Shown here: positions 13,655 through 59,629 of the stretch, in pieces
Layout of the letters: every line of letters starts with the position of its first letter
How positions within the stretch are numbered: the first letter of the stretch is position 1
Assembly (NCBI GenBank): GCA_019787685.1
Contig: JAHNUO010000007.1
Coordinates: 1,798,001 to 1,862,000 of the forward strand
Source of the DNA: Chiua virens
Lineage: Eukaryota > Basidiomycota > Agaricomycetes > Boletales > Boletaceae
DNA: 64,000 bases
Direction: 5' to 3'
Program-made: the position numbers and the translations under genes
Notes under the pieces: model-generated
The model's input: the letters and a program-made list of their open reading frames with translations, nothing else
What the model was told of the DNA's origin: nothing
Databases searched by the model: none

Positions 13655-15382
13655 ATGTCATCTAACATGCTCAACAACATTTCTAAGCTCAACAGATCAA
13701 ACTATTGTCACTGGGCTGATGACATGAAGAATTATCTTCAGTCAGTCAGTGTCTGGAATGCTTGCATGAAATGGACACGCCCCACGGATGATGACTTGGA
13801 AAAGCAGAATAACTGGGATCACAATGACGACAAAGCCATGGGTTTCATGAAGCTCCGCATTGAGCATCACTTGCTCAGTCATCATGCTGATTGTGCTACA
13901 GCTCTTTCCCTCTGGAATTCACTAAAGCAACAGTATGATGGCCACACCATCTCTTCCACTTATTCTGAATTCAAGTCCATGATGTCCCTTTTCTTCTCAG
14001 AAAATCAGCATCCTGCCCAGACTTTTGCCAAATTCAATACCCATTTTGCCCAGCTCGAGTCTTTTGAATACAAGGTTGATGACAAGATCAAGCTGATGAT
14101 TGTCCTGTCCTGGCTACCCAAATATGCCGACTTCTACACCAATTTACTCAATACTGCTGCAAATGAGAAACCCTCTGCCAATACCAAAACCCCTACTATG
14201 GCAGATGTAGAACAGGCCATCACAGCTGCTTGGCAACAACATGTTGCTCGCCATCCAACTCAGACCAGATCTCAGGCTAAGCCTGAACAGCAAGCGAACA
14301 AGGTTTCCGCTGTTAAGCGGAAAGGGAAGGAACCGAAGTTTGGTGCCCAGCAGAAACAACAGGGAAATTCTGGTTCTGGTGGTTCCAGTCTGGAAGGCTT
14401 CAGAAGGAAAAAGAGACGTGGCAAACACTCTGACTATAGCAAGAACCCCCAGCAACATCGCCACAAAGCCAACATTGTAGCTGAGGAGGTCCCCTCATTT
14501 GCTTTTGTCAATTTTGATCAAGAACCTGTCATCATTGATCCTGCCTCATCCACTTTCACCTCTCCGACCATTGACCCATGTCTGCTCTCCCATAAACCAG
14601 CTTCGACTCACTATGGTCCTCCTGCATTCCCTCATGTTCAGAATGCAATATTCCTTCTCCACCGTATTGGGGAAACTCCTTCTATTCAATCTGTTCACAA
14701 TGTGGACATGATAGTCAACAAGCACTTGGATTGGTCAGAAGAAATTCCCACTTCATCCAAGTGTCTTTTGGAACATGTTGAACAAGACACTTCCATGGCT
14801 GTTATTGAGGATGAAGATGCTGTCTCCCTTGGTGATGATGAAGACGACTGGCTTGGACGTTACTATGATTGTGGATCCACTCCCAAGTACATCTCTCATT
14901 CCAGACAATCCTACTCTGACACTAACGCACATCTTGTGTTGCAGCAAAGTCATTTACTAATGTCTAATATAGTAGATAGTCTGAGAATATCATCTGCTAC
15001 CCAGCCTCTCACTATGTGTGATGACTGTAACAAGTACATGGGCAAGGGAAAGCAAAGAGAGATAACTCATGAAGAAGATATCCTGGACATGTGGTTACTT
15101 GACTCCAGAGCATCATCACACTTTACTTCAAATATTGATGACTTCGTTGAGTATAAGCCATATACCACACCACACTATATGCAAACTGCAAATGGAAAAG
15201 CTCCTGTATTAGGTTCAGGAACTGTCATCATTGAGTATGAGAGCAGACCTGTGCATTTATCGCCAGTCATTTATATGCCTGCTTGTAAAATCAAGCTAAT
15301 TTCCATAGGCACTCTCCTCAAAGACTGTACACTATCTGTGCGCACACGTCCTGGACACATAGACTTTCACCATTCACAGTAG
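13655..15382 (+). CDS. gag: Copia H Gag and protease
   Basis: Starts MSSNMLNNISKLNRSNYCHW, the N-terminal gag motif of copia elements (LNxxNYxxW). A helical capsid region (residues about 20-190) and a basic linker (KVSAVKRKGKEPK, RRKKRRGKHS) follow. The usual CCHC knuckle is degenerate. The protease is near residues 475-560: WLLDSRASSHFTSN, where the normal DSGAS has Gly changed to Arg (GGA to AGA). The frame ends in TAG at 15380-15382, and the polyprotein continues in sense below. Probably a dead protease. Confidence 0.85.
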   Translation: MSSNMLNNISKLNRSNYCHWADDMKNYLQSVSVWNACMKWTRPTDDDLEKQNNWDHNDDKAMGFMKLRIEHHLLSHHADCATALSLWNSLKQQYDGHTISSTYSEFKSMMSLFFSENQHPAQTFAKFNTHFAQLESFEYKVDDKIKLMIVLSWLPKYADFYTNLLNTAANEKPSANTKTPTMADVEQAITAAWQQHVARHPTQTRSQAKPEQQANKVSAVKRKGKEPKFGAQQKQQGNSGSGGSSLEGFRRKKRRGKHSDYSKNPQQHRHKANIVAEEVPSFAFVNFDQEPVIIDPASSTFTSPTIDPCLLSHKPASTHYGPPAFPHVQNAIFLLHRIGETPSIQSVHNVDMIVNKHLDWSEEIPTSSKCLLEHVEQDTSMAVIEDEDAVSLGDDEDDWLGRYYDCGSTPKYISHSRQSYSDTNAHLVLQQSHLLMSNIVDSLRISSATQPLTMCDDCNKYMGKGKQREITHEEDILDMWLLDSRASSHFTSNIDDFVEYKPYTTPHYMQTANGKAPVLGSGTVIIEYESRPVHLSPVIYMPACKIKLISIGTLLKDCTLSVRTRPGHIDFHHSQ

Positions 15383-16980
15383 AAGCGTACTGTGTTGTCA
15401 TTCCATTCACATGGTACAGACACAATGTACTGGCTGCATGCTAAGAGCATCAAACCTGCTCCAATCACTTCAGATCACTTCCAAAACACTTCCGATTGCT
15501 TCCGAGACTGTTCCAAAGCAGTTCCGAGCAGTTTTATACCTACCTTGATCACTACTGACACTTCCAACCCAGAAGCGCTTGGAACCACTTTTCTCAATCA
15601 AAGTCATTGTAGGAAACTTCATTCCGGTTCGGAACATTCGGAACCACTCGGAACCACTTATACACACTTAAAATCAACTCGGAAGACCAGTTCCAGTCTG
15701 GAACGACACCCAGAACACTCAGAACAACTTAAAAGAAGTGAAACACACCCAGAAACACTAAAAAGTGTTAAAACTCATTCAATGTCACTCAATACTATTG
15801 ATTTTGAGTTGATACATCATCGTCTTGGCCATCCTTCGCGTGATGTGCTTAAAGCTGCATGCAAACACACCAAAGACTTTCCGGAAGTAGACATTCCATT
15901 GAAAGCACCCATCTGTCCTGGATGTGAACTTGGAAAACAACCAAACTGATCATTCCCTCATACTGAGAAGAGAGCCTCTGCTCCCTTTGAGTTAATACAC
16001 TCAGATCTCAAGTATTTTGAGGTTGAATCATATCATAAGCATAAATATGCGATCATGTTTTATGATGACTATACATCTATGTATGTCATGGATTGTATGT
16101 CTCAAATCCAAGGATCAAGCCTTAAAGGCTACAAAGCAATTCTTTACCTATGTCTGCAACCAATATAATGCTCAAATTAAAGGTTGGCATTCTGATGCTG
16201 GAGGTGAATTCACTTCTAAAGCCTTTACTGAGTATATGCAAGACCAAGGTATACACATACTCCAATCAGCCCCATATGCTCATCAGCAAAATGGACTGTG
16301 CAGAACGGTTAATCTGTACTCTCATGGATAAGGCACAGGCAATGTGACTTCAAACTTGTCTCCCTAATTCCTACTGGGAATTTGCATATTTACATGCTTC
16401 CCATGTGTACAACCACACTCCATTGGCCTGATTGAATTGGAAAACTCCTTATGAATTGCTCACTGGACAGAAACCTTCAATCTCACACTTACGTGTTTTT
16501 GGATGTGGTGCCTATGTGTATCTTCCCAATGAGATTCAAACAGGCAAACTACAGCCTAAATCACAGTTGATGATCTACCTTGGTGTATCAGCAGGAAGTG
16601 AATCCAATTGGATTTTCATGTGTCCTAACAATGCAATATTCACTTCTGCTCATGCCATCTTTGATGAGAACCTGTTCCCTCGTTGTCCAGGGGCTCGGCC
16701 TCACAGGCTGGTAAGCAGTGTACCACGCAACCCACCTCCTCATCATAACCATCACTCTGAACTAGAGGATTTCTCCTCTGATGAGTCTGATGCACCTCAA
16801 CGTGCTCCTCATCATCCTGTCATACGACCAGAAACACCAATGCAACCGGAAGCACCGGAACACTTGCAAAAAACACCACCACCTCCAGTGACCCCTCCTC
16901 GTGCTCCTAGACTACCTCTAGCAGCTCCTCCAGCTTTACCATGTTGCAGTGAAAGGATTAAAAACCCTCCCAGATGACCT
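15383..16980 (+). pseudogene. Copia H integrase
   Basis: GAG-pre-integrase zinc finger HHRLGHPS ... CPGCELGK at about 15800-15940, with a repeat-rich insert (TCGGAACCACT units) before it. The integrase core has SDLKYFEVE, HSDAGGEFTSKAFTEYM and APYAHQQNG. The catalytic Glu region (normally NGxxER) is disrupted by a frameshift near 16300. Stops at 15947, 16343 and 16430 are TGA in arginine contexts. A Pro/His-rich linker follows. Confidence 0.8.
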
Positions 16981-19637: not shown

Positions 19638-19797
19638 CGTTTGGGGTAGAGGGGAATGTTCAGTTGGAGATTGATTTTCAGCATGTGTCCCATGATGGGC
19701 AACACCCACTAGTGGGCCATTTTCACTCTGATTTGAGACCTGCTATTATAAGGTTCCCTTTTCCCCACGTAGGATGATAATGGGGAATGACAGCATC

Positions 19798-20252
19798 GGG
19801 GTTTCCAACATTTTGAGGATGTTTTTATGTGATTGAAAATGTATTTCAACATATTATATATTACAATTCCATTATGGGGCTTGCAATATATTTTACTTTC
19901 GGGCATGTCAAAATATTTCTCACAAGTATAACTTTTGTAGGAAATTCTAAGGGGGACAGAAGATAATCTTTTGATGGTGCAGAACATATTACATTTTGTG
20001 GATTTATTATGGCATAAATCCTCAAATATAATATATTGCTGTAATAAATCCACAAAATGTAATATGTTCTGCACCACCAAAAGATTATCTTCTGTCCCCC
20101 TTAGAATTTCCCACAAAAGTTATACTTGTGAGAAATATTTTGACATGCCTGAAAATAAAATATATTGCAAGCCCCATAATGGAATTGTAATATATAATAT
20201 GTTGAAATACATTTTCAATCACATAAAAACATCCTCAAAATGTTGGAAACCC
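19798..20252. repeat. Foldback element, 212-bp near-perfect inverted arms
   Basis: Left arm 19798-20009 and right arm 20042-20252 are inverted copies with only a few transitions. They are separated by a 32-nt loop. AT-rich, no coding content. No clear target duplication. Confidence 0.9.
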
Positions 20253-20280
20253 TGGTGTGTGAGTAGAATGCCTAGTAATA

Positions 20281-22934: not shown

Positions 22935-23950
22935 ACCTCCTTTGGCCTTGGTAACAGCTTCAAGCCTTCTATGCATGCTTTTAATCCATTTCTGATGCTA
23001 TTCTGCACACATATTCCCCCACTCCTCTACTAACCTCTCCTATAAATGATAAACTCCTTTAGGGGCACCTTTATAAGCTGAAAGTCATTTTTTGAGATGA
23101 TTTCAGGTATGTTCAAAGGAAGTAAGGTCTAGAGACTGTACAGGCCAATCTAAAGATCCAATCTCTTGATCTTTGACCCAGGTCTGAACTCTTTTAGAGG
23201 TATGTTCAGGATCATTATCTTATTGCAAAATGATATCACCTTCTGAAATTCAAAATTCTTCAATGTTTTCCAGCAACCCCTGCTGTGAAATTGTCACATA
23301 CTGCTCAGCACCCATCCTTCTGTACATCTCACTCTAAACTCCCACTCCATTCCATCCTATATAGCCCCATAGCCTCCTCTATGCTTGACTATATCTATAG
23401 TAATCAACTACTCTCCTGCCTTTTTCCACACATACTCTTGTTTATATGACCCAATCCTATTGACTTTAGTCTCATTTAACTATACAACCATTTTCCCACC
23501 CTCAACACCCCAATGCTAGTATTTGAAAGCATAGACCAACCATCCTTTCTTGTGACTCTTGAAGAGAAGAGGTTTTTGTTCTCTACCATAGCTTTCAAAG
23601 AGGCTTCCTTGAGGGTATTTCTGACTGTCTGAGGTAGAGAGGAGTATCAATAATGGTATTGATAAGTATAGTGAGCTGAACAGCATTTTTGGCCTTGCCA
23701 GTAATGATCTATAGTACAATAGCCCTTTTGCTGGTAAATGAAAACTTTGAAGGGTGACCACCAAGATGTTTAATCTTGTCTAGCTGGATTTCCTGAAGGA
23801 CCCTAGACACTGTAGACTTGCCCAGACCAGTTTTAGAGGTTATTTTCCTTGAAGAAAGCTTAAGAAAAGGAAAGGAGGCAGTATTGTCCCTTAAGAGCTG
23901 GAAATAGGTTTCATAATGATGATAGGAAAGTTACTATGAAATGGTGGGAT
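22935..23950 (-). pseudogene. Decayed Tc1-family transposase
   Basis: On the minus strand, recognisable DDE_3 fragments: FQQDNDPEHTSKRVQTW, LDWPVQSLDLTSFEH and the C-terminal SMHRRLEAVTKAKGGHTK. They match the order of the intact transposase at 25080-26096 (QQDNDPKHTS, WPAQSPDLNPIEH, KAKGGYTSY). Many stops and frameshifts. The 5' end meets the palindromic MITE at 23954. Confidence 0.75.
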
Positions 23951-23953
23951 TTA

Positions 23954-24176
23954 CAGTGAGCAACAAAACTGATGCAATGTTTGTAGCATTTTGATTGAAG
24001 CATGAATATTGAGAGCCCTGTTGATGCTAGACCCCCTAACCTAGGTACCATTGGAAAGCCCTTGATCAGGGCTTTCCAATGGTACCTAGGTTAGGGGGTC
24101 TAGCATCAACAGGGCTCTCAATATTCATGCTTCAATCAAAATGCTACAAACATTGCATCAGTTTTGTTGCTCACTG
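23954..24176. mobile_element. Palindromic MITE derived from the Tc1 terminal repeat, TSD TA
   Basis: 223 bp, flanked by TA on both sides. It is an almost perfect palindrome centred on TGATCA at about 24064. Each half matches the outer 110 bp of the long terminal repeats of the Tc1 element at 24737-26329. Confidence 0.92.
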
Positions 24177-24244
24177 TATATGGTGCTAGCTGATGATAGT
24201 TACATAAATATAACATAATAGAACCATTATCAAATGTAAACTGA

Positions 24245-24736: not shown

Positions 24737-26329
24737 CAGTGAGCAACAAAACTGATGCAATGTTTGTAGCATTTTGATTGAAGCATGAATATTGAGAGCC
24801 TTGTTGATGCTAGACCCCCTAACCTAGGTACCATTGGAAAGCCCTTATCAAGGGCTTTCCAATGGTATATGGTATTATTATGTAATCCTTACTATATCTG
24901 GAAATATTTCGAAATTAATGTAAGGTACTCATTGCATCAGTTTTGTTGCTGACACTCTAAAGTATTCAAAATGCATATTGCAAGTGGTTATTACATAAGC
25001 AATGGATCATGTGACATGCAATAAGTTCAACATGATACAAACAAACACACACACTATCACTTTGTCCACAACCATCATCATGAAATCTCTCTCAGTTGAC
25101 CAAACTCATCATATTATCTCTCTCTTGGAATTGGAACAATCAACCCATCAAATTGCTCAATCTACTGGTCTCAACCAATCTACTATTAGTAGACTCAGGT
25201 CCAAACATCTTCCCAACCTACCCAAGGCCTCTGGTGGTCGTCCTTCCATCATTTCTCCTACCGATATACGTCATGCTATTCATCTTATTGGATCTGGGAA
25301 GGCTGAGAATGCAGTTCAGGTGACCAAAATACTTCAAGAAGTGAAGAACCATTCTATCTCCCCCCAGACCATCCGCCGCCACTTGAAGAAAGCTGGTATG
25401 AAGGCTGTAGTGAAGCAAAAATGCCCTCTTCTTGCCCAGCGTCATAGGAGAGCAAGGATGGACTTTGCTCTAAGCCATCAGCATTGGACTGTTGAGGACT
25501 GGAAGTGAGTTATATGGTCAGATGAGACCAAAATCAATCGCATTGGGTCAGATGGCAGGAAATGGGCATGGAAAAGGGCAGGAGAGGGTCTTAGTGACAG
25601 GATTGTAGAGGGAACAGTTAAGTTTGGGGGAGGATCAGTGATGCTATGGGGCTGTATGACCTGGGAAGGTGTTGGAATGGCTTGCAAGATTGATGGTAAG
25701 ATGGATGCTGATCTCTATGTGCTGATTTTGGAGGATGAACTTCAACAAACTCTGGTGGATTATGGATTTTCCCCAGAAGACATTATCTTCCAGCAGGATA
25801 ATGACCCCAAGCACACCAGTAGGAAGGCTAGGGAGTGGCTTGATGACCATGAATTTGAGGTCATGGTATGGCCTGCTCAGTCTCCAGACCTTAATCCCAT
25901 AGAACACCTATGGTTTCTTCTCAAAAGAAGACTTGCAGAGTATCCTGAGCCAGCTAAGGAGATATTGGAACTTTGGGAGAGGATTAAAGTGGAATGGTAT
26001 AAGATTGGGGTGGAGGAGTGTCAGAGATTGATTGAGAGCATGCCTAGAAGAGTTCAGGAGGTCATCAAGGCCAAAGGAGGATACACTTCATACTAATCTG
26101 TGATACCCTTATACCAGCAACAAAACTGATGCAATGAGTACCTCATACCAATTTCGAAATATTTCCCGATATAGTAAGAAGTACATAATAAACCCATATA
26201 CCATTGGAAAGCCCTTGATCAGGGCTTTCCAATGGTACCTAGGTTGGGGGGTCTAGCATCAACAGGGCTCTCAATATTCATGCTTCAATCAAAATGCTAC
26301 AAACATTGCATCAGTTTTGTTGCTCACTG
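24737..26329 (+). mobile_element. Tc1/mariner (DD34E) transposon, TSD TA
   Basis: 1593 bp, ends CAGTGAGCAAC and GTTGCTCACTG, flanked by TA at 24735-24736 and 26330-26331. Long terminal repeats of about 220 bp each begin and end with copies of the CAGCAACAAAACTGATGC motif in inverted orientation. They frame a single transposase gene. It interrupts B1 gag. Confidence 0.93.
25080..26096 (+). pseudogene. Tc1 DD34E transposase with one premature stop
   Basis: Cut-and-paste DDE transposase. The N-terminal helix-turn-helix (QIAQSTGLNQSTISRLRSKH) binds the terminal repeats. The second HTH ends in RRHLKKAGMKAVVKQK. Catalytic residues: first Asp in IWSDETKI, second in FQQDNDPKH, Glu in NPIEHLW, with 34 residues between the last two. 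The frame is broken only by TGA at 25506-25508 (WK-stop-VIWSDE), which fits a CGA or similar arginine/lysine position. It ends KAKGGYTSY at 26096. I chose the ATG at 25080 because it starts MKSLSVDQ just before the HTH; the frame is open from 25002. Confidence 0.9.
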
Positions 26330-26332
26330 TAG

Positions 26333-27546
26333 CAGACATCTCCTACTTGGCTCTCTACACTCACCTCGCATGTCTCGCTCCAGCCACAGCACAGGCCTGG
26401 GCTTCCCCATCTTCCCATCAGTCACAGACCCCACACCAGAGTTGCCCACAAAGCACTACCATCGCCAACTCCTCATGCTATATGTGTGGCGGAGGTCATT
26501 TTCTTCGTGATTGCATATGCATACTCAAGTATATCCGAGCAGGCCACATCATCCGCAAAAATGGTTATCTCAACTTTCCCGATGGAGGACATATCAAACG
26601 TCATGCGACAACCAATTTATTCAAGGACACAATTGACGAGTACTATCAGAACCACACAATCCCACCTGCTCGCACTCCATCCGAATTTGTCAGAGAATCT
26701 CCACCGCATCTTCAGCAAGCCACTATGAATATGTTTGTTGCACCAGAACCATCTGCGGTTCTCTTCGAATGCAACCGCGTCGAAGATGCTATCACAGACA
26801 CCCGAGCATCCATCGAGGAAGTACCTGATGAGGAGGATGCTGATGTTTTAGCCCTCACGAGATCCAAGGCACGTGTGGCTGCTCACACTGATACAGAGAT
26901 CCCACCTCTGGAACCCACTCGCTCAGCTAAACAAACACCAGAGACACCCGAACTACCCATTTCCATGCCTGCACAATCCGTACCAGCGTCCAGAGACTCT
27001 GCACCACTCAAGCACGTTCTGGCATATATGTATGAATCGAAAGCTGCATCCCCTGACGCTGCCAAATGGGTCTACGAATTGCTTCTTCATATGACGATTC
27101 CGAACCTTTCCATCGCAGATTTATTAGCCATCAGCCCCGACTTACGAAAGGAAGCAGTTGAATATTGCAAAACACATTGGATTCCCACTCCGTTGACGAC
27201 CGCAGTCACTACTTTGCTGCCAGTCCAGATCGAGCATGCCACACCCCTCCATGAAATCAAAGTTGTCTTAAACAGAACAATTGACGAGCTTGTGCTACTC
27301 GATGAAGGATCCGAAATCGTAGTCATCTGCCAGGATGTTTGGGAGCATCTTGGAACACCAATCTCGAATCACACAGGAATGACAATGCAAACAGCAAACA
27401 GCAACTCACAACTGATGATGGGATGTATCGAGATGCTGGAAATTACAGTTGACGGTCTCAAGACTTGGGCTCATGCGTATGTCGTCCCAAATGCCCCATA
27501 TCATCTCCTTCTTGGCCGCCCATGGCAGCGCCTCGTCTGCCTCTAG
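26333..27546 (+). CDS. B1 Gag C-terminus and protease
   Basis: Continues gag after the Tc1 insertion. A CCHC-like knuckle CYMCGGGHFLRDC is at about 26478-26516, then an acidic and Pro/Thr-rich linker. The retroviral-type protease is at about 27290-27530: LLDEGSEIVVICQDVWEHLG and YHLLLGRPW. The active site has DEG in place of DSG. The frame ends in TAG at 27544-27546; pol is in a different frame downstream. Confidence 0.8.
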
Positions 27547-27819
27547 AAACACGAAACTGCATGCAACGTTAGCATTACCATTGCAGATCTGCTCGACCCA
27601 TCCAACGTCTGGATGATCCCTATGCATGCATGACCATTCCCTCACAAGCCGCACAGTGCACATGCATTAGCACAGACCGAATAGCAGGGAGCGATCTTGT
27701 CGCTTTCCATGTCCTCGCTCGCAGAATACCAGCTTCAACAGACCTTCGACATAGATCCAATCCGCCATGTGCTTGCATACAAGAAAGTTGCAAACTGAGT
27801 CAAGCCAGTTGCTACCACC

Positions 27820-28947
27820 ATGCCCCACCATGCTTGTATTGTCTGTCGTTTTCCAGAAGACCCACTCGACTCACTTCCACATCTATCCCCTAATCCACCA
27901 CCATTCTCACCCAGAAAGTGCATCACACATGAACGGATGACCGATCTCAGCATCTTTTCCAACAAATTCTTACTACCGGAGGAACAGAAACTCACTGCGC
28001 ATGTTTTACAAAACAATGAATTGGGTCTCGCATGGGATGAAACCGAGAAAGGATGCTTCCATGACGACTATTTCCCACCCGTAGTCATCTCAATCATTGA
28101 GCACACACCATGGGTCCAACGTCAGCCACCAATCCCACCCGGAATCCGTGACGAAGTCATCCAGCTCATTAAATCAAAGATCGCATCTGGAGTCTATGAG
28201 CCTTCAAACAGCTCATACCAGTCAAAATGGTTTTGTGTCACGAAGAAGAACGGATCTGTCCGCATTGTTCACAACCTACAGCCGCTCAATGCTGTGACTG
28301 TTAAAGACGCCGCCACTCTCCCATACATTGAGATGTTTGCTGAGCAATCCGCAGGCTGTGCAATCTACACCATGATGGATTTATTCGTCAGATTCGACCA
28401 CCATGCTCTTGCTGAAGATTCCCGTGACCTCACAACATTCCAGACACCTCTCAGGACCTTCCGTCTCACATCGCTTCCTATGGGATGGATGGATTCACCT
28501 GCTGTTTTCCAGAACGATGTCGCATTCATTCTCCAAGCTGAAATCAACATTGCCCTGAATTTCCAAGATGATATCAATGTTCTCGGCCCACATACACACT
28601 ATGAACTTCCCGATGGTACCTACAAAACCATAGCCGACAACCCAGGTATCCGCCGCTTCGTATGGGAGCATTGTGTTGATGTCAACCGTGTTTTACATCG
28701 TTTGAAGCACGCCGGAGCTACTGTATCTGTGAAGAAGCTTTTTCTTTGCCAACCCGAAGTCGTTGTTGTTGGACAGTCCTGCAATTACAATGGGCGTGTC
28801 CCAGACCAGTCGAAAGTTGCAAAAATCACAAAATGGCCCAGCCCATGCCAGTCTCACACAGAAGTCCACAGATTCTTAGGGACAACAGGAACTGTCCGGA
28901 ATTGGATCAAGGATTATGTGAAGATTGCTCAACACTTGTTGACCTAA
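27820..28947 (+). CDS. pol: B1 reverse transcriptase
   Basis: RT palm and fingers: KWFCVTKKNGSVRIVHNLQ, YTMMDLFVRFDHHAL, LTSLPMGWMDSPAVFQND. The catalytic box reads FQDDINV rather than YIDDI. It is followed by a long insert including ADNPGIRRFVWEH before the thumb region KWPSPCQSHTEVHRFLG. The start codon is not certain; upstream sequence to 27547 holds no other motif. A frameshift near 28930 joins it to RNase H. Confidence 0.85.
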   Translation: MPHHACIVCRFPEDPLDSLPHLSPNPPPFSPRKCITHERMTDLSIFSNKFLLPEEQKLTAHVLQNNELGLAWDETEKGCFHDDYFPPVVISIIEHTPWVQRQPPIPPGIRDEVIQLIKSKIASGVYEPSNSSYQSKWFCVTKKNGSVRIVHNLQPLNAVTVKDAATLPYIEMFAEQSAGCAIYTMMDLFVRFDHHALAEDSRDLTTFQTPLRTFRLTSLPMGWMDSPAVFQNDVAFILQAEINIALNFQDDINVLGPHTHYELPDGTYKTIADNPGIRRFVWEHCVDVNRVLHRLKHAGATVSVKKLFLCQPEVVVVGQSCNYNGRVPDQSKVAKITKWPSPCQSHTEVHRFLGTTGTVRNWIKDYVKIAQHLLT

Positions 28948-30920
28948 CCCGCAATGCCATTCCCTTCACTTGGACTGATGAGCACTGGAACACAATGAAC
29001 TACCTCAAAGCGGCTGTAGTTAGCTTGCCCGCAATCTGCCTGATCAATTACACCTCCGCATGCCCTGTCATCCTTGCCATCAACTCATCCTGCATCGCAG
29101 TCGGATATATTCTCTACCAAGAAGATGAAAACCAAGCATGTCGCCCCTCTCGTTTCGGATCCATCACATGGAACGATCGCAAATCTCGCTACTTGCAGGC
29201 CAAAATCGAATTATACGGTCTATTTCGTGCGCTCCGATCTGTTAAAGTCTGGATCATCAGCATCAAGAAACTCAATGTCGAAGTCGACACGAAGTATATT
29301 AAAGGCATGCTGAACAATCCGGACATCCAGCCGAACGCCGCAATGAACTGCTGGATCACGGGTATTCTCATGTTTGATTTCGAGCTCAAACATGTTCCCA
29401 CATCACGCCACCAAGGCCCAGATGGCCTTTCACGCCAAAGAAAAGGAGAAGATGAGGAGAATGACAAGGAAGAAGAAGAAGCAGAGGTTGAGAAATGGCT
29501 TGATGAAGCATTAGGATTAGGAATCTGGATTTCAAAGGTGATTGAGGACGAAATTTTTCAGAATCCCCAGGGAGGAGGAGGACCACTAGTCCTCTCAGCA
29601 ACAAATGGATCAGACGATGAAGACATTACCCTACCGATGAGTGAAGCAATGAAGCAACATGATTGTGAACTCAAGGACATTTTTCAGTTTCTCTCCACTC
29701 TCTCGATCCCATCCAACATTGCAGACAATCAACGCAGCCATTTTATCAAACACGCAACCGAGTTCTTCATATCCGCGGATCATCTCTGGTGCAAAGAATC
29801 CACTGGACGACATCAGAAAGTCTTATTTGGATTGGATCGCATTTGCTTTCTCAAGGAAACACACGACAAGCTCGGCCACAAGGGAATTTATGCTACCCAC
29901 CGCACCATCGCTGACCACTTCTGGTGGCCATCACTTACAGCAGACGTTGCCTGGTACATCAAGACATGTCATCAGTGCCAGATCCACTCAGTCGAGAAGG
30001 TTGTCATTCCGCCTGTCGTCGCTACACCAGCACCACTCTTCCACAAAGCGTACGTCGATTCCATGCACATGCTGACCGCACAGGGATACTTGTACATCGT
30101 CCAAGCTCACTGCTCACTCACCGGATGGCCGGAATGGTGGAAACTCAAGAATGAGACCGCACACACTGTTGGATCCTTTATATTTGAAGAGATTTTATGC
30201 AGATGGGGAGGTCTTGAGGAGATTGTCACAGATAACGGAACCCCGTTTGTCGCTGCACTCAACTGGCTCACTGAGAAGTATCACATCCACCACATTTGCA
30301 TTTTCGCATACAACTCAAAAGCAAATGGCATTGTTGAACACTCGCACCGTACCATCCACGACTCACTCGTCAAAGCATGTAACGGGGATATCACGCAATG
30401 GCCATCACTCGCCCTGCATGTCTTTTGGGCCGATCGCATCACAACCTGCAAAGCAACCGGACACACACCGTACTACATGGCTCACAGCACCGAGCCGCTC
30501 CTTCCATTTGACATCACTGAGGCCACGTTCCTCATTCCACACATAACCTTATCCGTAATCCACGACCAGATCTTGTGCAGCCGCTTCTCATCTGTCACCG
30601 ACTTCGAACGTCGCCTGGCGCATGCGATTCACGATCACGATTTCTGCCCCGGATCGCTCGTCCTCATCTTGAACAAAAAGATCGAACCCACATCCAACGC
30701 GAAGTGTCGCCCATGCTACTTCAGTCCCGTGGTCGTCATCTCTCATTCCCACAATAACAGCTCCTACTGTCTCGCCGAAGTCGACGGAACCGTTTTGAAG
30801 CTTCGTTTTGCTGCATTCCACCTCATTCCGTACTATCCCCGTTCACCCACTCATGTCGATGTCACTCGCTTTGTTGATCCATCAGATCTTGCTGGTCTCG
30901 CTGCCGAAGAAGAACCTTAG
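28921..30920 (+). CDS. pol: B1 RNase H and integrase
   Basis: RNase H at about 28930-29440 (FTWTDEHWNTMNYLK, VILAINSSCIAVGYILYQED, EVDTKYIKGML). An acidic tether (EDEENDKEEEEAEVEKW) follows. The integrase zinc finger is HDKLGHKGIYATH ... CHQCQIHS. The DDE core has YVDSMHML, IVTDNGTPFVAALN and NSKANGIVEHSH. The C-terminal domain ends FRLIPYYPRS-like at 30840. Uninterrupted to the TAG at 30918-30920. The frame is open from 28746, but the first 180 bases overlap RT in another frame and are a shadow. Confidence 0.88.
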
Positions 30921-39460: not shown

Positions 39461-40705
39461 ATGTCCTCTCACACCCGCCCTCAGACCAGTACTACTGGTA
39501 TCTCTACCTTGAACCTATCTGACACTACCCACATCCAATCCCTCAGAAACCTCCTCAGTCGCCGACAAACTCCTGAAGTCATCGAAGATTTCTGAGGTTT
39601 CTCCACTCAACTTATCGCATCCTCCGCCTCTCGAGCACCCGTATTCCTGGGTGCACGAACTCCGTCTTCCCATAATCAATCTCCAAGTATTCCGGGCTCC
39701 TCCAGGGGACATCCCTCTGATGAACCCAACTCCGGAGATGACTTCTCTGACCCCGAAACTGAACTTGCCTCTGATGATACCTATGGGCGATTGACAAATG
39801 CAATACAAAGTCTCACTTGCGCCTCTCATCACCCCTCCTCTAGCTCCTCCCCTCGCACTAAAGTCAGAGAACCTGATCAGTTTGATGGGACAAGCCCCCG
39901 CAAACTCCGAGTCTTTCTCGTTCAATGTGAGTTGAACTTCCAGGACCGTCCCAAGGCTTTCCGCTCAGACCGTGCCAAAGTCACATTTGCACTGTCTTAT
40001 CTGAAAGGAATTGCCCTTGAATGGTTTGAACCCAACCTCCTCGAATCTGACCCCTTCGTCTCCCGTCCCCTCTGGAAAGATCACTACACCGACTTCGTTC
40101 TGGAACTCCAGATGAACTTTGGTCCGCACGATCTGGTTGGAGACACGGAGTATGAACTCCGAGATCTGTCCATGAGTGATGGACAAAGGATCAACAAATA
40201 TGTAGTTGAGTTTAACCACTTAGCTGCTCAAGTCCGTGGTTATGGAGAAGGTGCTCTCCGTACCCATTTCTACAATGGTCTGCCAAACCGCATCAAAGAC
40301 GAAATCTCTCGCGTAGGCAAACCCCCAAGGCTCTCTGAAATGCGTTACATGGCGCAAGCTATCGATGCTCGCCATTGGGAGCGCAACTCCGAGATTAATC
40401 ACTCCTCCGTGCAATCCTCCAGAAACTCTGCATCCGCATCACATCCTATCTCCGAATCCGACCAAGAATATGACTCCGACGACTCTGACGAGTCTACCTC
40501 CGCACCCCAAGAACCTGAATCACCACTCGGTGAAGATGGTAAACTCACCTCCATCGAACGTCAGAGACGTTTCGACCTCTTCTTATGTATGTTCTGTGGC
40601 CTCCCAGGACATAAGGCTAAGGACTGCCCCAAGTCCACTTCTCGCTCTGCAAAGCCCCGTGCTACGCGAGCAACTCCAGCATCCTCCTCTGAGGACACCG
40701 ACTAA
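39461..40705 (+). CDS. gag: Element G Gag
   Basis: 415 codons from ATG 39461, interrupted once by TGA at 39593-39595. The capsid domain is at residues about 140-310: REPDQFDGTSPRKLRVFLVQ, LKGIALEWFEPNLL and the Ty3-type gag signature YVVEFNHLAAQVRGYGEGAL. An acidic Ser-rich linker follows, then the zinc knuckle CMFCGLPGHKAKDC. It ends SSSEDTD. The gag is otherwise intact. Confidence 0.85.
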
Positions 40706-55441: not shown

Positions 55442-55711
55442 CTAGTTGTTGGATTCATTATCCCAGTTGCCTGTGTTTACTGGAGCGTTCCAAGGACTGG
55501 CGGTGTTGTTAATAATGGGTGGAGCCTGGTACTGGTAGTCCTGTTGTTCGTAGGGGGCATAAAGTGCAAAGATGATGGTGTATTCGTTGAACTGGATTCT
55601 GAAGTTCAAGGATCTTTGGTAATCGATAAGGTTTCGAGAGATTTGATAGAGAATGAAGAACACAGTAAGGGTGATTACAAGGATTGCTGTGAAGATGAAG
55701 TAAGCGAGCAT
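55442..55711 (-). CDS. ORFb membrane microprotein, copy A2
   Basis: 89 aa, intact. A hydrophobic N-terminal segment MLAYFIFTAILVITLTVFFI (residues 2-24) predicts one membrane span. A polar domain with YTIIFALYAPYEQQD aligns to YPFAVTFSLFSPYEEYG of A3 ORFb, and an Asn/Trp-rich tail follows. The ATG comes 3 nt after the ORFa stop, and gag starts 6 nt after its own stop. No known family recognised. An Env-like or virion-membrane role is speculation. Confidence 0.7.
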   Translation of the reverse strand: MLAYFIFTAILVITLTVFFILYQISRNLIDYQRSLNFRIQFNEYTIIFALYAPYEQQDYQYQAPPIINNTASPWNAPVNTGNWDNESNN

Positions 55712-55714
55712 CTA

Positions 55715-56283
55715 CTAGATGTATCTCCTAGGGGTTCTAAGTGTGTTCCGAGGCCTTAGGTAAGGGAACTTGAAGTTATCGTACTGGGAGTAAGGGCAGA
55801 TGCGTGTAGGTACTAAGTTAGCCCTGTTGCATCTCAGGATTTTCCTCTGTTGTACAGCCGTTCTATTGGCTATCCTTTCAATCTCTCTGGGTGGGAGCCA
55901 ATCATTTGGGTCTCCTAAACTTTCCTCCGATGGATCTCTCAAAGGAGCTGGTGGGAAAGGTGATGGTTCTTGTTTGGGAATGGGAATGGGAAAGTATTCA
56001 CGCTTGACCTCTGGTTCCTCAGTTGGATACCGTAATTCCAGGCTGTCAGACCGGGTTAACTCTCTCTGACTGGAGTAGTTGGATAAGGCGCTAGAGTCGC
56101 CTATGAAGTGGCCTAATAAGGCGTGGAAGATTTTGGTGTCGGTACGATCTTCGGGATCAAGGTCCTTGAGAGCGACGACTTCAGCAAGGTATGCTGCGTC
56201 AAGGATATAGGGTTCTTCTTCGAGGCCAGGAAAGGCTTCCTGAGTGGCGGCAATGATAGAGAGTGAGAGTGATGAGTTAGACA
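55715..56283 (-). CDS. ORFa, spliced upstream ORF, copy A2
   Basis: About 189 aa, no recognised domain. There is no ATG in the open frame. Splicing from donor 56423 to acceptor 56284 joins the final A of exon 1 (56424) to TG (56283-56282), making the start codon, then SNSSLSLSIIAATQEAFPGL. Acidic middle VVALKDLDPEDRTDTKIFHA, then a Pro/Glu-rich linker. A basic C-terminus REIERIANRTAVQQRK ends RPRNTLRTPRRYI. The same design is seen in A3. Intact in this copy. Confidence 0.7.
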
Positions 56284-56423
56284 CTGATTGGGCAGGTCAG
56301 TTAAGATCTCCTTTCTGGTCAGGGGTGTGCTATCTGTTTCTGCGTATGCTAGACCTTGAGTCTTTTTGCAAATCGGCTTATTGGGAACAGATGTTTCAAC
56401 TACTTTTCAAGCTTGCGACTTAC
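56284..56423 (-). other. Leader intron of A2 (140 bp)
   Basis: Minus strand: GTAAGTCGC at 56423, branch-like TTAACTGAC about 15 nt before the acceptor AATCAG at 56284. The whole leader from the predicted RNA start through this intron contains no ATG. Confidence 0.65.
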
Positions 56424-56504
56424 TTGGGTGTGGCTCTGTTATTTTGTAGTAGAGGCTACGATGGGGTTGGGACTTGACAGTAGTTGTCAACAGCAAAGAT
56501 AAAC

Positions 56505-56515
56505 AACAAAGTTCT
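56505..56515 (-). promoter_or_regulatory. Self-priming site of A2
   Basis: Minus strand AGAACTTTGTT, 2 nt inside the 5' LTR. Reverse complement of AACAAAGTTCT at the predicted transcript start in the LTR. Confidence 0.75.
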
Positions 56516-56517
56516 AA

Positions 56518-56949
56518 TAAAACAACCTAGAACAATACTAGACTGTAAAGTGTAGTGGTTGAGTGAAGAGGTGGTTCAGTCCAGCAAAGAGGCAAAAACT
56601 CCAAGAGAACTTTGTTAGAGCTCTCTGGCTTACATAGATTCATGGGGTTTATTACTACATGGATGTTGGAGTTCTAATCTGAGTATGAACTACGTAGATA
56701 AGCATAATGTATCCTATTGGATGATAAGGTGTGAATAGATATGAGTCATAGATAAGAACATAGCCTTGCACTGCCAGTGATGAGTCAGTGATAAGGGAAA
56801 TGAATAGATAAGGACATGAGGTGATGGATGCTGTGTTATTGTGGCAGCCAATCGGATATGATCCTTTGAACAGCCTTGACATGAGATGTTATCTTTAGAA
56901 TAGATCGAATGTTGAAGTCATTAAGGGAGGAAAAGTTGATATCGTAACA
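56518..56949 (-). mobile_element. 5' LTR of A2
   Basis: 432 bp. The last bases on the minus strand read GTTGTTTTA in place of GTTGTTTCA, a single C-to-T change at the LTR end. Confidence 0.95.
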
Positions 56950-57786: not shown

Positions 57787-58207
57787 TGTTACGATACCAA
57801 CTTTTCCTCACTTCACAACTCCAACATTCGATCTATTCTAAAGATACTCGCCTCATGTCAAGGCTGTCCAAAGAATCATACCCTATTGGCTACCACAATA
57901 TCACACACTTATGCTTCTATTTATTCATTTCCCTTATCACTGACTCATCACAGCAGTGCAAGGCTATGCTCTTATCTATGACTCATATCTATTCACACCT
58001 TATCATCCAATAGGATACATTATGCTTATCTACGTAGTTCATACTCAGATTAGAACTCCAACATCCATGTAGTATATAAACCCCATGAATTGAAGCCAGA
58101 GAGCTCTAACAAAGTTCTCTTGAAGTTTTCATCTCTTCACTGGACTGAACCCCCTCTTCACTCAACCACTACACCTTAACAGTCTAGTATTGTTCTAGGT
58201 TGTTTCA
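57787..58207 (+). mobile_element. 5' LTR of A3
   Basis: TGTTACGATACC to TTGTTTCA. The predicted RNA start AACAAAGTTCT is at 58108-58118, downstream of TATATAAA. Confidence 0.94.
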
Positions 58208-58209
58208 TT

Positions 58210-58220
58210 AGAACTTTGTT
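58210..58220 (+). promoter_or_regulatory. Self-priming site of A3
   Basis: AGAACTTTGTT, 2 nt after the LTR; exact complement of 58108-58118. Confidence 0.78.
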
Positions 58221-58302
58221 GCCTTTCTTCGCCGTCGACACTACTGTCAAGTCCCTCAACCTCGTCATAGCCGTCTTACCTCTATTAAGAGCAGCGCCCC
58301 AA

Positions 58303-58438
58303 GTAAGTTGCAGACTCTGAACGGAAGATTTTATCAGCTTCAAATAAGCTGCTCGAGACCCAAGGTCCATATAGTGCACCAGCCGATAGCGCACTTTTTG
58401 TCACTCATTGTCCTCTTTACTGAGACCACACAAAATAG
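58303..58438 (+). other. Leader intron of A3 (136 bp)
   Basis: GTAAGTTGC donor, branch-like TTTACTGAG, acceptor AAATAG. Exon 1 ends in A, exon 2 begins TG, so splicing builds an ATG in the ORFa frame. Confidence 0.65.
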
Positions 58439-58980
58439 TGACTTCCCTCCCTCTCTCCATTGTCGCTGCCGCCCAAGAAGCATTCCCGGGTCTAGAAGAC
58501 TCACCATACGTACTTGACACTGCCTATCTCACTGAGGTAGTTGCCTTAGAGGATCTTGATCCCGAGGACAGGACAGATACAGAGATATTCCACGCCTTAC
58601 TAGGCCATTTCATAGGAGATGACACGTCCCTATCCGACTACGAGTCAACCCGGTCTGACAGCCCAGAGCTTAGGTATCCAACTAAGGAAGTAGAGGTAAA
58701 GCGTGAATACTTTCCCGCACCCCTTCCCGAAAGAGAACTGTCACCTATCCCAAAAAGGGAACCCTCTGAGGAAAGTTTAGGAGACCCTAACGATTGGCTC
58801 CAACCCAGAGAAATTGAGAGATTAGCCAATAGAACGGCTTTGCAAAGAAAAAGGGCAGAAAGACGATACAGGGCCAATTTAGTACCCTCTCGCATCCGCC
58901 CATACTCACAATATGATATTCTCGAATTCCCTACCTTACGTCCTAGAAACACTCTCAGGATTCCTTCCAGATATCTCTAA
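58439..58980 (+). CDS. ORFa, spliced upstream ORF, copy A3
   Basis: About 180 aa. The start codon forms by joining A58302 to T58439-G58440, giving M-TSLPLSIVAAAQEAFPGL. It is followed by VVALEDLDPEDRTDTEIFHA and LLGHFIGDD, a Lys/Glu/Pro linker, and REIERLANRTALQRKRAERR; it ends RPRNTLRIPSRYL. It contains no internal methionine, so a plain ATG start is impossible. The acidic-then-basic layout matches A2, with many substitutions. Unknown function; a regulatory or accessory Gag-like role is possible. ORFb begins 12 nt downstream. Confidence 0.72.
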
Positions 58981-58992
58981 ATAAAATCTTTT

Positions 58993-59238
58993 ATGTCTTG
59001 GGAACTTGTTGCAATCGCACTCATAATCTCTTGCACTCTCACCACCTACTTTTTCAGCTATATCACATTCTACCTTACAAACAAGGTACAAGAATCCCAA
59101 AGGCCAATTTACGTCTCTATCAAACAACGAGACTACCCTTTCGCAGTAACCTTCAGTCTCTTCTCACCCTACGAAGAATATGGAACAGCCACCGCTAACG
59201 CTTGGGAAGCACCAGAACCAACTACTGAAGCTTGGTAA
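58993..59238 (+). CDS. ORFb membrane microprotein, copy A3
   Basis: 81 aa, intact: MSWELVAIALIISCTLTTYF then FSYITFYLTNKVQ. One membrane span is predicted at residues about 5-28. The C-terminal half is YPFAVTFSLFSPYEEYGTAT plus an Ala/Pro/Trp tail. The gag ATG (59241) follows the TAA after 2 nt. Kept in frame in A1 (one TGA) and A2 in spite of strong sequence divergence, so it is probably a real product. Confidence 0.72.
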   Translation: MSWELVAIALIISCTLTTYFFSYITFYLTNKVQESQRPIYVSIKQRDYPFAVTFSLFSPYEEYGTATANAWEAPEPTTEAW

Positions 59239-59629
59239 ATATGTCCACACAAGATATTGCTGATGCCACCGTGGTCATGAATGACCCGAAGGAATCCAAT
59301 AAGGATAGACTCCTGTCAGCTATATTTATAATCTCACAAATGAGTGGTGCTATTGCCGCACTACAAACCAAACCCCACTCCGCGGGAAAGGTCAAAATCT
59401 TCGCCGACCCCAGAACCTATGATGGAGAACCGGCCTGATTTGAAGAGTGGTGGGCTAAAATCAAAGGATGGATAGATATAAACCAAAACACTATCACACC
59501 CGGCTCATACACCGCCATACTTGCCGTGCTATCTCGCCTAAAAGGAAAATGAGCTTCGCAATTCGCTGAGACTCGCTTAGCACAAGGGACCAACCTCACA
59601 TGGGGACAATTGGTCATTGATGTAGAAGG

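Follow-up and report, generated by a model that had tools for sequence, protein, structure and literature searches.

The 64,000-nt window analyzed here (positions 1798001-1862000 of contig 7 in the 48.3-Mb, 136-contig Chiua virens assembly that was also searched) contains copies of a chromovirus, i.e., a chromodomain Ty3/gypsy long terminal repeat (LTR) retrotransposon, in which splicing very probably builds the start codon of the first open reading frame (ORF), ORFa. Two copies of this one family, A3 on the + strand and A2 on the - strand, display the arrangement. In A3, exon 1 (58108..58302) is free of AUG and contributes, as its last base, the A with which the ORFa start codon begins, a predicted 136-nt intron supported by conservation in the family (58303..58438) runs from GTAAGT to TAG, and ORFa exon 2 (58439..58980), which is under purifying selection, extends from the TG of that codon to the stop. 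The counterparts in A2, all on the - strand, are exon 1 from the self-primer to the start-codon A (56424..56616), a predicted 140-nt intron from GTAAGT to CAG (56284..56423), and ORFa exon 2 (55715..56283). An earlier note on this DNA had proposed that A58302 is joined to TG58439-58440 through a GTAAGT donor at 58303 and an AG acceptor at 58437-58438, with no ATG in 58108-58438 and no methionine codon in the ORFa frame, and that A2 repeats the design (donor from 56423, intron end at 56284, A56424 plus TG, and a branch-like TTAACTGAC). All of these details were reproduced on the sequence. Up to 58980, A3 has just two ATGs, at 58619 and 58913, both outside the ORFa frame.

An ORFa search of the same genome returned at least 153 matches. 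We fetched 131 pieces (A3 included), added A2 from the window, and removed 22 repeats, which left 110 distinct 5' regions. With the donor defined as a GTAAGT located 90-200 nt upstream of ORFa, 108 of the 110 copies have it in place, and the base directly before it, which was no condition of the search, is A in all 108. The acceptor is equally constant, with AG/TG (the slash marks the splice site) present in 109 of the 110. In 105 of the 110 copies, joining donor to acceptor yields an ATG that is in frame with ORFa. As the in-frame join defined that set, more is learned from the failures: among the 108 two-site copies, 3 (L022, L025, and L128) retain both the donor and AG/TG in a frame other than that of ORFa. 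In L064, the acceptor is present and other sequence occupies the place of the donor, and L129 has neither site. Intron length in this main family ranges from 130 to 148 nt. In addition, five pieces of a distant family were included, whose ORFa is 46-52% identical to that of the main family among the matches listed. One of them (L135) has no leader, and the other four all show A/GT...CAG/TG in frame, with introns of 134-152 nt and, in L134, a GTTAAGT donor. The alignment of family members proposed in the earlier note thus reveals that donor, acceptor, and the A/TG split are conserved. Its argument from A2 and A3 as two independent copies does not hold as stated, since the two are homologous. 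Independence comes from diverged subfamilies, the conservation goes beyond chance, and the family as a whole now carries the argument. Of the two kinds of exception it had envisaged, an ordinary in-frame ATG upstream of ORFa occurs in none of the 105 copies, and loss of the donor is confined to the two copies named above.

For the intron alignment, 109 copies (the 105 plus the 4 distant ones) were grouped into 16 clusters, whose representatives share a mean identity of 0.56. At the donor and the acceptor, and at the A and TG of the adjoining exons, 94-100% of these representatives agree, and mean column conservation is 0.98 at the donor and 1.00 at the acceptor vs 0.71 in mid-intron, where 15 of 98 columns are likewise invariant. 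Splicing usually favors G at exon position -1. In this family, that position is a fixed A, and the commonest base at -2 and -3 accounts for only ~0.61 of copies. Given that the fixed base is not the one preferred by splicing and that its neighbors vary, we read it as the signature of a start codon and not of splicing alone. Downstream of the intron, the base after the exonic TG is variable, and in the aligned copies it is invariably followed by C as the middle base of codon 2. The sequence evidence for a genuine intron splitting the ORFa start codon is, in our view, very strong.

Alternatively, ORFa might start at a near-cognate codon on unspliced RNA, in which case the splice-like signals would be fortuitous. 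In some frames, a few codons ahead of the acceptor are indeed open, and ORF I of rice tungro bacilliform virus (RTBV) uses AUU (PMC3542737). However, in 67 of 105 copies that open stretch spans just 5-7 codons, and a near-cognate start cannot account for A/GTAAGT, ACTGA, and AG/TG being conserved across 16 clusters, so that we regard this explanation as very improbable. We find it hardly likely, too, that the intron is real and serves mainly RNA fate (export, nuclear retention, or silencing via poorly spliced transposon introns), with the split start codon as a side effect. Spliceosomes stalled on suboptimal transposon introns do trigger silencing in Cryptococcus (PMC8892269), but this element has retained its donor and branch-like site, and splicing has no need of the exonic A that is fixed here.

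The predicted intron resembles a spliceosomal one in its GT donor, branch-like site, use of the first AG, and length variation between fixed ends. The branch-like ACTGA of A3 (58419..58423, +) lies 15 nt before the intron end; across the family, ACTGA stands 13-17 nt from that end in 104 of 105 copies, and in 103 of the 104, no other AG intervenes between it and the acceptor. By eye, tubulin-like genes of the host have short introns with GTACGT or GTAAGT donors, one of them with CTGAC and CAG. Another conserved intron motif, AGACYnAAGGTC, is present in 104 of 105 introns and reads AGACCCAAGGTC in A3 (58356..58367, +). It corresponds to a small hairpin of the form GACY-loop-GGTC, the only conserved RNA structure in the intron, and its conservation is mostly that of sequence, with C-G/U-G variation at one pair. 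An Rfam search of 58000-59300 gave no match.

Judged by its substitution pattern, ORFa is a gene under purifying selection. Among 820 pairs of 41 ORFa cluster representatives, we obtained a median dN of 0.12, dS of 1.10, and dN/dS of 0.117, with a maximum of 0.45. An intact ORFa, i.e., at least 170 codons open from the assembled ATG, is found in 80 of the 105 copies, and 76 of those 80, including A3, have no internal methionine. A search among 5.8 billion proteins yielded 91 candidate relatives, none at E <= 0.001; 10 pattern matches in viral contigs included no relative, and nothing in Pfam scored over its cut-off. DUF5491 was considered and rejected, as it fell below its own Pfam cut-off, and a single-sequence AlphaFold2 model (mean pLDDT 57) was too poor to use.

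The element is a chromovirus by its LTRs, zinc knuckle, protease, reverse transcriptase (RT), RNase H, integrase, and chromodomain. Pfam recognized zf-CCHC, RVP_2, RVT_1, and RNase H in A3, which leaves the window upstream of its own chromodomain, and RNase H, integrase, and Chromo in a further copy, A1; the three copies are ~90% alike where compared. A 160-aa chromodomain piece of A1 has 27 relatives, mostly ENA proteins and proteins of the fern Ceratopteris. The 5' LTR of A3 (57787..58207, +; TGTTACG...TTTCA) was delimited at its start by motif and at its end by comparison of the A2 5' and 3' LTRs together with the sequence; that of A2 spans 56518..56949 (-). The RNA start at 58108 given in the earlier note coincides with the first base of AACAAAGTTCT (58108..58118, +), the predicted RNA 5' end and self-primer, which is the exact complement of the putative primer-binding site (PBS), AGAACTTTGTT, at 58210..58220 (+), 2 nt behind the LTR end. 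This coincidence lends independent support to the RNA 5' end. The corresponding A2 sites are 56606..56616 and 56505..56515 (both -), and each of the two A3 sequences is matched exactly in 100 of 105 copies. An RNA start of ~11 nt complementary to a PBS right behind the 5' LTR points to self-priming, an arrangement known from Tf1. Since both sites lie in exon 1, spliced RNA would retain them.

Beyond what the earlier note had described, there is an AUG desert that extends through leader, intron, and ORFa. Exon 1 is without ATG in all 97 copies of standard exon-1 length. Counts up to the ORFa stop were made in 75 of the 80 intact copies, namely those with the self-primer at the usual distance. 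The five left out are L023, L036, L054, L081, and L106; ATGs were counted ahead of the donor in L054 and L106 and inside the intron in L023 and L081. Within the 75, exon 1 is ATG-free in 75, the intron in 70, ORFa in 34, and all three in 33. Those 33 copies, which represent 15 of the 41 ORFa clusters, lack ATG in any frame between the start of the RNA and the stop of ORFa (896 nt on average); another 33 contain 1 or 2 such triplets, and the other 9 contain 3-8. The desert contains 1.17 ATGs per 900 nt vs 10.75 CATs in the same stretch and 21.6 ATGs in the following part of gag (8 copies). Dinucleotide composition predicts 0.61, 1.44, and 3.11 ATGs per copy for exon 1, intron, and ORFa, respectively, and 0.00, 0.07, and 1.08 were observed. 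Moreover, 51 of the 81 ORFa ATGs occupy positions where most other copies have ACG, which suggests that they arose later through C-to-T decay.

In the 33 clean copies, the first ATG comes 3-20 nt beyond the ORFa stop and opens a second frame, ORFb, with gag next; across the 75 copies, an ATG is found within 60 nt past that stop in 74. ORFb encodes 81 aa in A3 (58993..59238, +), with one membrane helix by eye, and 89 aa in A2 (55442..55711, -). Copies with enough sequence have 81 aa (n = 16) or 89 aa (n = 6); elsewhere, ORFb is shorter, broken, or not opened (n = 8), or its end is not readable (n = 44). It is likewise ATG-poor, with 0.86 ATG vs 4.0 CAT per copy (22 copies), and gag follows closely: counted from where the ORFb stop codon begins, its ATG lies 5 bases downstream in 18 of the 22 copies, 9 in three, and 18 in one. 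In A3, gag starts at 59241 with an A at -3, and its frame closes at 59438 (59241..59438, +). The base at -3 is C for ORFa (68 of 75), T for ORFb (71 of 74), and A for gag (21 of 22). According to the usual -3 rule, these contexts are weak, weak, and strong. Such a layout, in which AUG-poor upstream ORFs with weak contexts precede a strong start, is consistent with leaky scanning of the RTBV/badnavirus type.

We consider it probable that removal of the intron makes the ORFa AUG and that unspliced RNA and leaky scanning together provide ORFb and Gag. The leader of this self-priming chromovirus would carry a spliceosomal intron of about 130-152 nt, and its removal would join the final A of exon 1 to TG as the sole start codon of ORFa, as sequence conservation suggests. 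On spliced RNA, scanning ribosomes would reach the weak ORFa start first and could leak to ORFb and gag; on unspliced RNA, the first AUG would be that of ORFb (weak), followed by gag (strong). Splicing would thereby gate ORFa without blocking Gag production. The main competitor, which we think rather unlikely, is constitutive splicing: ORFa, ORFb, and Gag would all be translated from spliced RNA by leaky scanning, unspliced RNA would be an untranslated genome, and no switch would exist. The weak -3 bases at ORFa and ORFb, the A at gag, and the AUG-poor ORFa all suit leaky scanning, and ATGs inside the distant-family introns agree with it. However, constitutive splicing leaves unexplained why the intron lacks ATG in 70 of 75 copies, where ~1.4 would be expected and where CAT occurs 1.6 times per copy.

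Several observations speak against intron removal as a gate for ORFa or soften it. CTGAC is found near the intron end in just 46 of 105 copies, with CTGAG in those resembling A3. The first ATG of the unspliced RNA precedes the ORFa stop in 42 of 75 copies (37 in ORFa and 5 in the intron); these look mostly like later decay, and ACG is not the majority reading at the positions of 30 of the 81 ORFa ATGs. Introns of the distant family hold 1-3 ATGs in 4 of 4 copies. When the 33 clean ORFa sequences were shuffled among synonymous codons, 12% of the shuffles had zero ATG (mean, 1.7), so that avoidance of out-of-frame ATGs on its own is a moderate signal per copy, the 33 having been selected as ATG-free. 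As ORFa has no recognizable relative or domain, its function cannot corroborate regulation. Our confidence in the gated arrangement is lowered by its overlap with constitutive splicing and by the 42 copies with an ATG before the ORFa stop. The switch proposed in the earlier note, in which spliced RNA makes ORFa and unspliced RNA skips it, fits the AUG desert and may be too sharp a term, given that weak AUG contexts could let spliced RNA feed ORFb and Gag as well.

None of the 110 distinct 5' regions has an intron-less leader. A scan for spliced junctions with three patterns (up to 3 mismatches), which would detect the junction of 75 of 105 copies, recognized no intron-less copy; it marked seven places, all at the full 3 mismatches and none of them read, vs three for reversed controls. 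Two of the seven (C28:273724 and C88:28172) lie ~1.26 kb downstream of an ORFa match in the same element, and the remaining five have no adjoining ORFa match among the matches listed. As no intron-less copy was recognized although spliced RNA keeps the PBS, spliced RNA is probably not the genome. PBS and self-primer sit in exon 1, which leads us to look to the intron for whatever marks the genome. It probably also holds something that makes unspliced RNA the genome, e.g., a packaging signal, a speculation prompted by the missing intron-less copies and the conserved intron motif. AGACYnAAGGTC would be a candidate, possibly as a packaging or dimer element. We tentatively entertain the possibility that one intron does three jobs: its removal assembles the ORFa start, its retention leaves ~900 AUG-free nt leading to ORFb and Gag, and a mark (possibly the AGACYnAAGGTC hairpin) restricts the genome to unspliced RNA. 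If so, the element would possess, in its split start codon, an inbuilt means of separating messenger from genome.

The closest known systems include Tf1 and the fungal self-priming chromoviruses, with which the element shares the chromodomain, RT-RNase H-integrase, and an 11-nt RNA 5' end complementary to an LTR-adjoining PBS. Tf1 has a single ORF and is not known to have a leader intron, whereas here two ORFs precede gag, the first of which would require splicing for its start codon. The intron of the Arabidopsis Ty1/Copia element EVD is located at the gag-pol boundary, behind gag, whereas the one described here belongs to the leader and precedes all three of ORFa, ORFb, and gag. In EVD, as appears to be the case here, splicing of retrotransposon RNA gives a separate messenger, short GAG; its intron is coupled to early polyadenylation and makes no start codon (PMC8892269). 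Splicing from the 5' untranslated region into ORF1 of human L1 (SpIREs) also involves a leader donor and an acceptor near the first ORF, but in SpIRE97/976 the start codon of ORF1 is lost through it, and the genome contains spliced copies (PMC5860796), while here the start would be created and no intron-less copy was recognized. Fungal Gypsy elements likewise include chromodomain elements, most being described with one or two ORFs, and the available part of that survey mentions no element intron (PMC2864245). The closest translational parallel is the leaky scanning of RTBV and badnaviruses, where the first two ORFs have weak or non-AUG starts (PMC4926197); in RTBV, ribosomes scan ~895 nt to the third ORF (PMC3542737). 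RTBV ORF I is read from AUU on unspliced RNA; here, by contrast, an LTR retrotransposon would have no start codon until splicing. We found no description of a retrotransposon with a splicing-made start codon in the open-licence literature, searched mostly with narrow phrases, which is weak evidence of absence. This variant of splicing-controlled retroelement expression would be new, and the sequence analysis largely supports the interpretation first put forward.

A retroelement must share out one transcript among several uses: genome, Gag, and accessory proteins. In this family, a start codon that depends on splicing seems to settle the allocation, with a maintained AUG desert behind it, which makes the system a clean example of splicing-gated translation that can be tested directly. 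It also provides a searchable genomic signature, an ATG-less ORF behind A/GT...AG/TG and upstream of gag; ordinary ORF finders would miss or mis-start ORFa.

Elsewhere in the window, no host gene was recognized among the ORFs scanned with Pfam, which identified other LTR retrotransposons at 13655-15946, 26317-30917, and 39791-40702 (copia-type gag and further gypsy-type genes). Two near-perfect inverted repeats were also noted, one at 19794-20257 with 221-nt arms, a 22-nt spacer, and a 96% match, and the other at 23949-24181 with 114-nt arms, a 5-nt spacer, and a 99% match.
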